Shown in pieces: positions 23,207-27,445 of a DNA stretch of 27,445 bases. Within the stretch, counting starts at the first letter, position 1. Each line of letters begins with the position of its first letter. The stretch comes from a virus, in the IMG/VR virus record IMGVR_UViG_3300042010_000252, positions 1 to 27,445 of that record. The stretch is one strand, 5' to 3'. Below the pieces are notes generated by a model. That model saw only the letters and a list, made by a program, of their open reading frames with translations. It made no database searches and was not told the DNA's origin. Both the position numbers and the translations under genes were made by a program.

Positions 23207-23910
23207 AACAAACTGTTCTCCTCTGGCGCGTCCCCTATCGGACTGATCAATCCGCTCTGATTATTACGTACATTGCCAATCGCCCGATCCACCTTGAACC
23301 ACTCGAACGCCTCGGTGGGTTCACCCTGCAGCAGTACCATTTGCTCGGCGCGCTCCTTGGGTGTGGAAGGATCCAACCATTCTCTGGCCAGTTCCGGCGA
23401 TAACGTCACGGGACGACGGTCATGGATATCCACCAGGCCGCCAGCGCTGTCAGCGGTGATGATGACGAAGCCGTCGTGTTCGCTCGGCTTATGCTCCGGA
23501 TTTGGGTATTGGCCGATGGCAGCACACAGGATCGGCGCTCGATCCCGCCGGCGAATGAGGTAGGGCTGCTTTTTCGGTCCGCCTTCATCCACCCACTCAA
23601 ACCAGTTGTTGATCGCGATGATCGCCCGGTGTGGCCAGATCGCCCGGAAGAACGGACCGTGGGCGACCTTTTCGACCCTGGCATTAATCGGCGCAGCACG
23701 ATCCTTGGCCCAATGCGGTCGCCATCCCCAGCGCACCATGTCAGCGTGCAGGTAGTCGCCTTCCTGGTGAAAGAGAGCGAGCTGCGTACTCGGCGCAGCG
23801 TTATAGCGAAGAAAGGGTAGATCGCCGGTTTGGTTCACCAACGGGTTGGGCATGCTCAACGCTGCAACGAAATCGTGGATGCCGTCGTATTGAGAAAGTC
23901 GTCCACACAT
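23203..23910 (-). CDS. yedK: SRAP (YedK/HMCES-type) abasic-site DNA-protein crosslink protein
   Basis: A 235-residue SOS-response-associated protein that captures abasic sites in single-stranded DNA through its N-terminal cysteine. The start is fixed at 23910, because the cysteine must follow the initiator Met (MCGRLSQYDG); the frame is open nine residues further. The family residues are present: Cys 2, Arg 4, Asn 37 (RYNAAPS), NARVE at 76-80, Glu 105 (WFEW), and His 163 (DIHDRRPV). Length is normal. It is the second gene of a leftward pair after the coiled-coil gene, 23 bases apart, and the LexA box at 24321 would put it under SOS control. It converges with the 22976 gene. It is found in bacteria and phages alike, so it may be prophage cargo. 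Confidence 0.9.
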   Translation of the reverse strand: MCGRLSQYDGIHDFVAALSMPNPLVNQTGDLPFLRYNAAPSTQLALFHQEGDYLHADMVRWGWRPHWAKDRAAPINARVEKVAHGPFFRAIWPHRAIIAINNWFEWVDEGGPKKQPYLIRRRDRAPILCAAIGQYPNPEHKPSEHDGFVIITADSAGGLVDIHDRRPVTLSPELAREWLDPSTPKERAEQMVLLQGEPTEAFEWFKVDRAIGNVRNNQSGLISPIGDAPEENSLF

Positions 23911-23933: not shown

Positions 23934-24302
23934 TCAACTTTTCGCAATTTGGGTGAACGGATCCACGCCGGTCAGCTCACGCAGCTTTGCGTGGAGCTCG
24001 CTGATTACCTTGGCGTTGGCCATCAGCTCCCAGTTGGTCTTCGTCTCGATATCCGTGACCCTTCTATTGGCATCTGACGCAGAGGTGAGCGCCCGGTTCA
24101 GTTCGCTCCGCAGTCGATCGCGCTCCTCGGATACCTCAGCGTGCATCTGCACCAGGTTAAAGATGTCACTGCGCGACTTACGGAGCTGGAGGGTCAGTTC
24201 CTGGACTTCGTTCTCATATATGCGCAAAAAATGACGGCACGTCTCAAGCTCAGTTGGGCAGCCAAGCCAGTCGCTGGTGTCTTCGATTTCGTAGGGGTCC
24301 AC
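23934..24302 (-). CDS. Coiled-coil protein, first gene of the SOS-type pair
   Basis: A 122-residue protein read from GTG 24302, with TAAGG (on the minus strand) about seven bases upstream. It opens MDPYEIEDTSDWLGCPTELE and is largely a coiled coil: LRIYENEVQELTLQLRKSRS, VSEERDRLRSELNRALTSAS and ELHAKLRELTGVDP. No signal peptide, membrane span or known domain is seen. The stop lies 23 bases before the SRAP start, so the two genes probably share a transcript. A LexA box ends 18 bases upstream of the start codon. A partner role with SRAP in DNA damage handling is possible, but rests only on linkage. Confidence 0.72.
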   Translation of the reverse strand: MDPYEIEDTSDWLGCPTELETCRHFLRIYENEVQELTLQLRKSRSDIFNLVQMHAEVSEERDRLRSELNRALTSASDANRRVTDIETKTNWELMANAKVISELHAKLRELTGVDPFTQIAKS

Positions 24303-24336: not shown

Positions 24337-24568
24337 TAATCGAGGGGCGATATTTCCGCGAGGGGTAGGCGACGAGACGACTAGGTTGGGGGGAGCCCCC
24401 CGGTTCTGGGTATTTTTTTCCTCGCGCCTTAGAAAATTAGCGACCTGAAAAATGGCCATTCGTTGCGATGAAACAAGCCCCTAGAATTGGTTTATTTATG
24501 TGGCCTGAAAAATGCTCTGAACCACCTACGGAGTTTATTGATGATGATGGTGTTAGGAGATAGACCCC

Positions 24569-24670
24569 TTGTGGAAACATCCTCTGCTTCTTGGTATCAC
24601 GATGATTGTTGGAGTTCTTGGCTTCGGGTGGGCATTGAGCGCTATTGGTTTGTATTTGGCGGTGCGGTGA
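24569..24670 (+). CDS. 33-residue membrane microprotein (TTG start)
   Basis: The frame from TTG 24569 to TGA 24668-24670 gives a 33-residue chain: initiator Met then WKHPLLLGITMIVGVLGFGW and ALSAIGLYLAVR. AGGAGA (24555-24560) lies about nine bases upstream, and a stop at 24554 excludes a longer frame. The central 22 residues are hydrophobic with Gly/Ala spacing, a single membrane span. No family recognised. It is the only coding candidate in the AT-rich stretch 24303-25057. Confidence 0.42.
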   Translation: MWKHPLLLGITMIVGVLGFGWALSAIGLYLAVR

Positions 24671-25057
24671 ACCGCTCGTTCGTTGATTACCTCTTCCACC
24701 ATTGGAATTCGGCAGGGCACGATAGGACCTCGTAATGAGAAAGTCGGCCGCAGATGAGTTGCTTCTCCTACAGTGCATTTCAACTCAACGGAACCAGTAT
24801 TTGCCCCGCACGAGGTAAAGAAACCTCGATCATGTATGTCGTATGCGCTTTTATTGTGTTCGATTGTATCTAATGCGTCGATATCTACACGACCATACAA
24901 ACATTGGCGTGTTTGACATATCGCAGACATAGATTGGGGTTGAGATACCGCTTCCAAAAAAACAATTTTGGAATGACCTGCTGTGCGATTAGCCGCACGT
25001 AGTTACTAAATAGCTGTATCACAGGGCAGCTGAACCGCGCTGCCGGGAGAAAATGCA
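24671..25057. other. AT-rich non-coding stretch before the EGKCG gene
   Basis: No credible gene is seen in these 387 bases; open frames on both strands lack ribosome binding sites and look non-coding. It holds a perfect 8-bp inverted repeat (24952-24973) and a small GTGCG/CGCAC hairpin (24983-24998). A TTGACA at 24913-24918 has no suitably spaced -10 partner. Confidence 0.55.
24952..24973. repeat. Perfect inverted repeat upstream of the EGKCG gene
   Basis: TTCCAAAA (24952-24959) and TTTTGGAA (24966-24973) separated by AAACAA. It lies 84 bases before the start of the EGKCG/EF-hand gene and is a possible operator; no known regulator motif is recognised. Confidence 0.55.
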
Positions 25058-25504
25058 ATGACTGTAACAACGACTCGTAAAAAGAACATTTGCGTAGCGG
25101 GTGTCTCCCTGGCTGGAATCGTTCTGGCCGGAGCGGTGTTTGCCGCAGAACCCATGCCGCAGGGTTACACGCTTGCCGCGGCTCAGGTCAGTGCAGAGGG
25201 CAAGTGCGGGGAAGGAAAATGTGGAGAGTCCCAAGTCAAGAAACAAGCCAAGGCAAGTGAAGGTAAGTGCGGTGAAGGTCAATGCGGAGATGCAATCTTC
25301 AACTCTATTGACACTGACAAAGATGCACGAATTTCACTGGCTGAGTTCCTCGTTGCTGCGCCTGGGAAGCAAGCGGTGTTTGCAAAAAAGGACACGAATA
25401 AGGATGGCTATATTGATGAAATGGAGTCATACCTCAGTGTGAAGGCGGCCTACAACGAAAACGGCCGAGAATTGCCAACAGGCCTCTTTTCAGTAAAAGA
25501 GTAA
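25058..25504 (+). CDS. Secreted EGKCG-repeat protein with EF-hand pair (HvfA-like motif)
   Basis: A 148-residue protein with GGGAGA upstream of ATG. A Sec signal peptide (MTVTTTRKKNICVAGVSLAG, then IVLAGAVFA) is predicted to be cut near residue 29. Then come three EGKCG motifs at 47-51, 52-56 and 68-72, and EGQCG at 73-77, with cysteines 50, 55, 71 and 76. Two canonical EF-hand loops follow: Asp 85/87/89, Ser 93, Glu 96, and Asp 112, Asn 114, Asp 116, Asp 120, Glu 123. EGKCG is the modified motif in HvfA-type RiPP metallophores, where HvfB (DUF692) and HvfC act; no such gene is in this window. The EF-hand fusion suggests metal binding twice over. The function is inferred; it may alternatively be an unmodified metal-binding protein. 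Confidence 0.85.
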   Translation: MTVTTTRKKNICVAGVSLAGIVLAGAVFAAEPMPQGYTLAAAQVSAEGKCGEGKCGESQVKKQAKASEGKCGEGQCGDAIFNSIDTDKDARISLAEFLVAAPGKQAVFAKKDTNKDGYIDEMESYLSVKAAYNENGRELPTGLFSVKE

Positions 25505-25519
25505 CAACTCTCGGACCAT

Positions 25520-25543
25520 ATGCCCTTGCCATCGCAGGGGCAT
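25520..25543 (+). terminator. Hairpin after the EGKCG gene, likely transcript end
   Basis: ATGCCCTTGC (25520-25529) and GCAGGGGCAT (25534-25543) form a 10-bp stem with one G-U pair and loop CATC. No strong T-run follows (TTAATGAG), so it may be an RNA-stabilising hairpin rather than a true intrinsic terminator. Confidence 0.5.
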
Positions 25544-25638
25544 TAATGAGCATTTCGGATTGATGTGCGCGATTGCTTTCCAGGTAAATCGTCAGCTTCG
25601 GCACTGCTTGGTGCAGACGCGGCATTGTCTGACCACGG

Positions 25639-26053: not shown

Positions 26054-26103
26054 CAAGCATGGGGTGCTAGGGGTCGAGTGTTCGAATCACTCCGTCCCGA
26101 CCA
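26054..26103 (+). other. 3' fragment of tRNA-Pro(GGG); probable prophage attachment site
   Basis: Bases 26054-26103 fold as the 3' part of a tRNA. Anticodon stem CAAGC/GCTAG (one A-A mismatch at 26055/26069) carries loop ATGGGGT with anticodon GGG. A five-base variable loop GGGTC follows, then the T arm GAGTG-TTCGAAT-CACTC, the acceptor strand CGTCCCG, discriminator A, and CCA at 26101-26103. No D arm or 5' acceptor strand CGGGACG precedes it. This is what integration into the 3' end of a tRNA gene leaves at the far end of a prophage. The intact copy should be left of this window. Confidence 0.82.
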
Positions 26104-26129
26104 TATTTACTGAGTAAAATCAGACATTT

Positions 26130-26156
26130 AAGCCGATCTTCCAGATCGGCTTTTTT
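26130..26156 (+). terminator. Rho-independent terminator of the (displaced) tRNA-Pro gene
   Basis: AAGCCGATCT (26130-26139) pairs with AGATCGGCTT (26143-26152) around TCC, followed by T to 26156. It lies 27 bases after the tRNA CCA, and is probably the native chromosomal terminator of the tRNA gene. Confidence 0.85.
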
Positions 26157-26274
26157 GTGCCTGCGAAAAACCCGCGCAAACCTACCCGGTGGTGTCGCTG
26201 ATATTCATTTTCTCGCCAGCCGTTCAATGTCAGGCGTGTGGTTTAATGAGATTAGTTCTTAGGGAGATGTGGCT

Positions 26275-26418
26275 ATGGAAAGGGCGTTGCGGAACCCGCT
26301 GTTTTTGACAGGAATACCGTTGGCGGTTTTTGGTGCCGCTATTGCGGCGCCTGGCCTGTGGATTCCAGGTCTGGTCTTAATGGTTTGTGGATGGGCAAAG
26401 GGGAATAAAAGTACCTGA
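26275..26418 (+). CDS. 47-residue membrane protein, hypothetical
   Basis: ATG 26275 has AGGGAGA (26261-26267) seven bases upstream and opens MERALRNPLFLTGIPLAVFG, then AAIAAPGLWIPGLVLMVCGW, ending AKGNKST. The central 30 residues would cross the membrane once or as a hairpin. No family is recognised. It is the first gene right of the tRNA fragment, so it is probably chromosomal. Confidence 0.65.
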   Translation: MERALRNPLFLTGIPLAVFGAAIAAPGLWIPGLVLMVCGWAKGNKST

Positions 26419-26469
26419 TGTTTTCGCCGCGGGCCTTGTAGCAGTTCTTTCAATTTTTTTCGGTAAGTC

Positions 26470-26628
26470 ATGAGCGAAGAACGAGATATCCCAGAACCCG
26501 AGCACGATCACCTGCTCGATCATGAATTCCATGATGATGAGTCATGGGTCGAAGAAGACGCTCAGGCCATTGTTGATGAAGAAGATGATGACGTTGATTT
26601 TCTTGATCAGATAGATCAGGACGACTAA
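26470..26628 (+). CDS. Very acidic 52-residue protein, hypothetical
   Basis: ATG 26470 to TAA 26626-26628. The product starts MSEERDIPEPEHDHLLDHEF and continues HDDESWVEEDAQAIVDEEDD, ending in DDVDFLDQIDQDD, with more than a third Asp and Glu and several His. The ribosome binding site is weak (GGTAAG). No family or fold is recognised; such acidic small proteins can be disordered or bind metals or basic proteins, but nothing decides this. Confidence 0.5.
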   Translation: MSEERDIPEPEHDHLLDHEFHDDESWVEEDAQAIVDEEDDDVDFLDQIDQDD

Positions 26629-26766
26629 CAGGCGTTCAACATCCAAATGACCTGTCCACGTGAAGGCAGAAGCTGGATAAAAATAGAGACGACCGTTCGT
26701 CGGAACCTACGCACGATCAACCATTTGGCAAGTCGATGAAGTAGCCCAAAAAAAAGACAGGTTTCT

Positions 26767-26985
26767 ATGCGCCCACTAATTCTCGATTTGCCGAATGGGC
26801 GTGAGCTCGCTAATGAGCTTGATCTCGCGATTTCGCAGATGATGTCCATCCCGGTCGAGCACATCGGTGGCGCTTTGTGGCTGGAAGCTTCCAGCAGGCA
26901 GCAGCAGGCCTTCCAGAAATGGCGCGAGTATCTACAGCTCATGGCGGATGGACGAGTGCGTGTCGAGGCGCTGAAGGTCGCTTGA
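26767..26985 (+). CDS. Hypothetical 72-residue protein
   Basis: ATG 26767 follows AGACAGG with suitable spacing. The chain MRPLILDLPNGRELANELDL, AISQMMSIPVEHIGGALWLE, ASSRQQQAFQKWREYLQLMA appears as a compact alpha-rich protein without membrane span. Codon use is normal for the genome, which supports a real gene. I know no function. The minus-strand frame over it is taken as a shadow. Confidence 0.65.
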   Translation: MRPLILDLPNGRELANELDLAISQMMSIPVEHIGGALWLEASSRQQQAFQKWREYLQLMADGRVRVEALKVA

Positions 26986-27136
26986 ATTCACTCTGAATCG
27001 ATGCGCCTGGTCATGAAGGCGCGGGTAGCGTCCGGTTTTTTGTTTCCGCCATTCGTCCAATGCTGGGCACTCGATTGCGGTGTGACTTTCTTACGTTTAA
27101 GCACGGATTAACCGAGCATGAGAACGGAGAGTCACC

Positions 27137-27445
27137 ATGGAAATTGATGAGAATGCACCTGGCAATAAATCGCAGCAGCGCGAGACGCGTACAACCGATA
27201 ACGAAACGGGCCATGATCCGAGCTGGAACCAATACGAAGTTCCATTACCGCCCGACGATGAAGCGCCTGTCGATGAAGATATGGCGGATGTAGATGCAAC
27301 TAACTCGGTATCGAGTGAGCATCCGCAATCTGGCACCAACAGCCGCGCCGATGATCCTGATGCCGACCCACAGATGAACGAATTGGGCGAAGGCGAAAAA
27401 GAGCAGCGCGGCGTGCCGGCAAGTGATCCTGAATCGGGTGCCTGA
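27137..27445 (+). CDS. Acidic, disordered hypothetical protein
   Basis: A 102-residue protein from ATG 27137, with GGAGAG about six bases upstream; its TGA is the last codon of the window. The sequence MEIDENAPGNKSQQRETRTT, PLPPDDEAPVDEDMADVDAT and LGEGEKEQRGVPASDPESGA is rich in Asp, Glu, Pro, Asn and Gln, and is likely disordered. It has no signal peptide or membrane span. No family is recognised. It may be a stress-type small protein, but this is not supported by any motif. Confidence 0.6.
   Translation: MEIDENAPGNKSQQRETRTTDNETGHDPSWNQYEVPLPPDDEAPVDEDMADVDATNSVSSEHPQSGTNSRADDPDADPQMNELGEGEKEQRGVPASDPESGA

Follow-up and report, generated by a model that had tools for sequence, protein, structure and literature searches.

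The 27,445 bases of the virus record examined here (the window, in what follows) contain a phage cargo gene, or moron, by its placement in the sequence. The precursor protein that it encodes belongs, from its sequence features, to a known class, the Buf_EGKCG|EF-hand_5 chimaera of copper- and calcium-binding type; it is the prophage-borne member of this class that appears to be new, the protein class itself being known. On balance it is probable that the moron encodes an EGKCG|EF-hand RiPP metallophore precursor which is modified in trans by the HvfBC of the host, and that the exported product binds metal. If true, this would constitute a lysogenic conversion in which the phage brings nothing but a RiPP precursor and relies on host enzymes. 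In this regard, no paper joining 'prophage' and 'MNIO' was returned by the literature search, and within the literature searched there is neither a report of a prophage-borne member of the class nor an earlier one of such a conversion.

The precursor and its protein class

The gene (25058..25504, + strand) has an ATG start with an RBS-like GGGAG 8 nt on its 5′ side, and encodes 148 amino acids. The N-terminus, read by eye, comprises an RKK, a hydrophobic run and VFA|AEP, which make up a putative Sec signal peptide (residues ~1–29), and it is followed by the leader motif PQGYTLA at residues 34–40. EGKCG motifs then start at residues 47, 52 and 68 and an EGQCG at residue 73, such that the four repeat cysteines are arranged as two double repeats, Cys 50/55 and Cys 71/76; a further cysteine, Cys12, lies inside the signal peptide. 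These repeats, which a first-pass annotation had read from the letters of the sequence, are real, as is evident from the open reading frame, the motif positions and the NCBIfam model of the HvfA repeat (NF050137, KCGExKCG_twice), which is matched at 38.7 bits (cut-off 19.5; E 5.8e-10). Against NF050188, the model of the full-length HvfA equivalog, the score of 38.6 bits falls short of the 95 required, the match covering the repeats only. Two EF-hand loops are also present, with Pfam EF-hand_1 (PF00036) scoring 31.2 against a cut-off of 25.4, and with PF00036 and PF13202 both above cut-off over two stretches each. Both loops had been described as canonical, which is correct for loop 2 (DTNKDGYIDEME, residues 112–123), the sole fully canonical loop of the precursor, but not for loop 1 (DTDKDARISLAE, residues 85–96), in which loop position 6 is Ala in place of Gly. 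An AlphaFold model based on 15 aligned sequences (mean pLDDT 56, and ~72–88 across most of the EF region) predicts residues 1–76 to be disordered and residues 78–134 to form a helix–loop–helix EF-hand pair. A Foldseek fold search gave generic EF-hand proteins only, at non-significant E-values.

A scan of genomes gave 301 relatives, from which the best 80 were kept. Among these best 80 of 301 are proteins from Pseudomonas, Lysobacter, Pseudoxanthomonas, Rheinheimera and others, nearly all of which share a single build of export signal, GY.LA leader, EGKCG repeats and EF-hands. Some 50 of the same 80 directly adjoin DUF692 and DUF2063 genes, often with a DoxX and an OsmC-like gene nearby, the remainder (mostly from Pseudomonas) being without adjoining DUF692 or DUF2063. 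In an alignment of 15 members the GY.LA leader, the EGKCGEG[KQ]CGD segment and the EF positions are invariant or near-invariant, with E68, G69, C71, G72, E73, G74, C76 and G77 strictly so; in other words, the repeat segment is conserved as strongly as the EF-hands. Full-length homologues in other genomes show 66–74% identity to the precursor. For the closest homologues, pairwise dN/dS against the window gene is, where computable, 0.13–0.29. The precursor gene may accordingly be viewed as one under purifying selection, most of the divergence perhaps predating its capture by the phage. From the NF050137 and EF-hand_1 scores, the identity of these homologues and the low dN/dS, it follows that the motif content of the reading frame exceeds what would be expected by chance.

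Within the tree, the window protein is placed alongside the two Pseudomonas sp. Irchel 3A7 copies (SH-aLRT 98); a homologue at 68–69% identity to the window protein (L001) fell outside the filter of the tree and was left out of it. The closest relative, at 74% identity, is one of the Irchel 3A7 proteins (G002:C10), which, like the window protein, has 148 amino acids, an EGQCG as its last repeat and no DUF692 nearby. Unlike the window gene, it is chromosomal and lies directly behind doxX.

Kinship with HvfA-type RiPP precursors, as first put forward, is thus upheld, both by NF050137 being over its cut-off and by the shared alignment of leader, repeats and EF-hands. The fusion to EF-hands, on the other hand, had been thought unusual, and it is neither that nor new, since PMC12452194 already describes a widespread class of this kind, to which the best 80 of the 301 relatives also attest. 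The window precursor resembles the chimaera described there (for example WP_187711723.1) in its signal sequence and two C-terminal EF-hands, and in its short unstructured EGKCG segment without 17-residue repeats. It differs from those chimaeras, which are described from bacterial genomes and mostly from MNIO clusters, in being encoded on a prophage whose record includes neither an enzyme gene nor one for DUF2063 or DoxX. Stand-alone precursor genes as such are, from this source, already known for bufferins in general.

Precursor and modifying enzyme in Pseudomonas

No DUF692, DUF2063 or DoxX gene is found within the 27-kb record, and the precursor had been supposed to depend on an enzyme encoded elsewhere in the host. 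Of 400 Pseudomonas genomes, taken as a fixed sample, 176 have a precursor match and 331 a DUF692 gene, the latter being present in every one of the 176 with a precursor; carriers devoid of DUF692, which the first-pass annotation had named as evidence to the contrary, were therefore not encountered among the relatives. HvfB-type enzymes were grouped using as query the DUF692 protein of one genome (G165), which splits the genomes clearly, with best E-values of ~1e-96 or lower versus 1e-65 or higher. An HvfB-type enzyme so defined occurs in 173 of the 400 genomes, 172 of them with a precursor and one without. A further 223 genomes have neither, and five are discordant, namely that one enzyme-only genome and four precursor-only ones (in one of these four the precursor match is weak), such that precursor and HvfB-type enzyme agree in 395 of the 400 genomes as raw counts, phylogeny being ignored.

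Distances were scored in the 130 genomes for which both positions are listed. Precursor and enzyme are ≤5 kb apart in 52 of these and >5 kb apart in 78, and in the split genomes they are often separated by 0.2–6 Mb where both share one contig. Necessarily, given the 78 split cases, adjacency to DUF692/DUF2063 does not define the EGKCG|EF-hand class. Near-perfect co-occurrence, together with a split arrangement in most of the scorable Pseudomonas, strongly suggests that the precursor depends on a host enzyme, much as first supposed, the HvfB of the prophage's own host being inferred from relatives.

The HvfB-type loci of G165, G009, G162, G305, G185, G002 and G001 are each made up of a DUF692 and a DUF2063 gene, a composition which is Pfam-confirmed for two of the seven, and no EGKCG motif occurs in the available flanks of these pairs. 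Among them, G165, G009, G162, G305 and G185 also contain the attachment-site or host-flank sequence of the window. The Irchel 3A7 genome (G002) has a single DUF692 gene and four precursor matches and, therefore, if its precursors are modified, some at least must be modified in trans.

Stand-alone DUF692–DUF2063 pairs without an EGKCG gene were seen in seven Pseudomonas genomes (L244, L245, L246, L247, L250, L252 and L253), where they have a partly common neighbourhood of methyltransferase-like, acetamidase-like or chemoreceptor-like genes, as named by eye. Judging from this arrangement, these pairs are likely to be trans-acting HvfBC loci. At L149:667-1389, doxX stands directly upstream of G002:C10 with no DUF692 nearby, which suggests that it is DoxX, rather than the enzyme, that stays linked to the precursor.

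PMC12452194 reports thousands of MNIO enzymes without a recognised precursor alongside, and notes stand-alone precursors and precursor-less enzymes separately; a split of enzyme and precursor with near one-to-one co-occurrence in Pseudomonas is not spelled out in the parts consulted. The many lone DUF692–DUF2063 pairs of Pseudomonas, which likely have EGKCG|EF-hand substrates elsewhere in the genome, would offer a part-answer to this open point. Moreover, since the enzyme pairs are lone and the substrates scattered, yet the two agree in nearly all genomes, modification in trans lends itself to direct testing, in which a single enzyme pair is combined with several such dispersed precursors.

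Proposed maturation and metal binding

Under maturation in trans, the phage would supply the precursor alone, and a host HvfB/HvfC-like pair (DUF692 plus DUF2063) would modify it in the cytoplasm. The pair would act on the unstructured repeat segment, such that up to four cysteines would become 5-thiooxazoles with the loss of ~4 Da per Cys. The analogy is with the EGKCG repeats of FonA, HvfA and MmrA, which are converted into 5-thiooxazoles by an MNIO–DUF2063 pair with the loss of four H per Cys, giving products which bind copper (PMC13097082, PMC12538549). In the reported FonBC assay a two-repeat substrate was modified and a one-repeat substrate was not, and many changes around the Cys were tolerated; the double repeats of the window precursor number two. 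Sec would then export the modified protein to the periplasm, where Cu(I) would bind to the modified repeats and Ca2+ is predicted to bind to the EF-hand pair, the lysogen thereby gaining extra periplasmic metal-buffering capacity for the cost of one small gene. In Microbulbifer the copper protection afforded by EGKCG peptides is weak and not robust (PMC12538549); a copper benefit is therefore uncertain even for known members, and by analogy the benefit may lie elsewhere than in copper. Somewhat more tentatively, and at a little under even chances, a precursor-free, trans-acting HvfB/HvfC locus kept by Pseudomonas might serve several scattered EGKCG|EF-hand precursors, with the precursor of a temperate phage plugging into this system or competing within it, and so spreading a metal-handling trait.

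Compared with the known systems, the window precursor shares with HvfA (the oxazolin of Haemophilus) and with the captophorins FonA and MmrA its EGKCG repeats and its predicted modification to 5-thiooxazoles by an MNIO with PME1/DUF2063. No EF-hands are described for those precursors, and their genes adjoin those of the enzymes; the window precursor differs in both respects, and also in having EGQCG as its last repeat.

It is unlikely, in comparison, that the product is simply a calcium-binding periplasmic protein, with a functional EF-hand pair and with cysteines that are unmodified or that serve as mere thiols in redox chemistry or metal binding. Such a role would accord with the retention throughout the family of two EF-hands, one of them fully canonical, and with the EfhP-like Ca2+ role that is proposed in PMC12452194. 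It would leave unaccounted for, however, a repeat segment whose eight invariant residues make it as conserved as the EF-hands, as well as the match between precursor and HvfB-type enzyme across the Pseudomonas sample.

Prophage boundary and cargo slot

Portal, head, tape-measure, tail-fibre and spanin genes of Pseudomonas-phage type are present in the window. To their right lies attR (26056..26108, + strand), which comprises the 3′ portion of tRNA-Pro(GGG) and a further 5 bp and matches, at 100% identity, the copy of this tRNA gene that is intact in L115; L112, L113 and L114 also have this 3′ end. Beyond it is host chromosomal flank (26109..27445), of which 26448–27445 is 89–90% identical to the Pseudomonas genome G165. 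The left attachment site falls outside the window. With phage genes on both sides of it, attR to its right and no modifying enzyme in the record, the precursor gene is indeed an orphan within the prophage boundary, as had been annotated. The homologues L001 and L002 were considered as further prophage copies and rejected, no phage structural genes being seen around either.

The gene is contained in ~1.26 kb (24377..25637) which L150, a related prophage, lacks; there the same phage flanks are joined by just 7 bp, and this stretch is therefore an insert. Its GC content upstream of the precursor gene is 47%, versus 59% in the phage body. On the left, a SRAP/YedK-like gene (23239..23910, − strand; phrog_1599) provides the phage anchor and a 122-aa conserved prophage ORF (23934..24302, − strand) the edge of the slot; on the right, the edge is a 69-aa phage gene (25639..25848, − strand; phrog_12397, E 1.1e-35), relatives of which were found in 441 IMG/VR stretches. 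Across 80 IMG/VR contigs that carry phrog_12397, the interval between it and the following anchor ranges from 82 bp, as in several contigs, to >2.7 kb or several kb, and is filled by many unrelated genes, the EGKCG double repeat occurring in none of the 80. By these comparisons the interval is a variable cargo slot. Like prophage morons and lysogenic conversion genes, the precursor gene is a lone additional gene whose GC differs and which occupies a variable slot close to att, lying inside the att side and absent from related prophages. It differs from the usual morons in that it would encode just a substrate, to be matured by a host pathway of several enzymes.

Other occupants of the slot, as read from their sequences, include a fasciclin-like secreted protein (L213), response regulators (L186, L220), a KaiC-like ATPase (L220) and a GGDEF-type protein (L158), and the slot beside phrog_12397 (L153–L232) may be worth searching for novel cargo or defence genes. 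In the insert upstream of the gene (24377–25057) no confident second gene was found, the sole Rfam match is far under threshold, and a consensus scan gave no sigma-70 promoter match. Immediately 3′ of the gene, a hairpin-like sequence, ATGCCCTTGCCATCGCAGGGGCAT (25505..25544, + strand), was not called by terminator prediction; it shares DNA homology with L001 and so seems to travel with the precursor gene. A terminator-like hairpin with a T run was also observed at 24392–24407, within the insert and close to its left edge, and could insulate the cargo gene from late transcription of the phage, terminator-like sites being no more numerous than in shuffled sequence.

Searches of 50,697 phage records, 72,556 plasmid records and IMG/VR gave no relative of the precursor, the IMG/VR matches L146 and L147 extending over one EF loop only, which rules out a common phage gene. 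A neutral or silent passenger, captured by the phage, barely or not expressed and of no benefit, might well look like this: the only phage copy known in the collections searched, with no promoter consensus match upstream, in a slot whose cargo differs greatly between phages. Its intact reading frame with a ribosome-binding site points the other way, as does the low dN/dS, although most of the divergence may predate phage capture, and we regard a passenger as improbable, to much the same degree as the purely calcium-binding protein. That an ordinary host gene just outside the prophage was wrongly included in the virus record is very improbable indeed, for although the homologues elsewhere are chromosomal, this is contradicted by the attR and host flank to the right of the gene, by the PHROG gene between it and attR, and by related prophages, such as L150 with its empty slot, that carry both flanks without the insert, and it could be revived only by a chimaeric assembly of the record.

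Prophages that end in the same tRNA-Pro attachment sequence carry different cargo, namely a multi-pass membrane protein and a nearby LRAT-like protein in one (L112:4000-7600) and a 474-aa secreted protein in another (L113:6000-8600). In L112 an integrase-like gene lies beyond the tRNA fragment, opposite this cargo, which suggests tandem prophages there.
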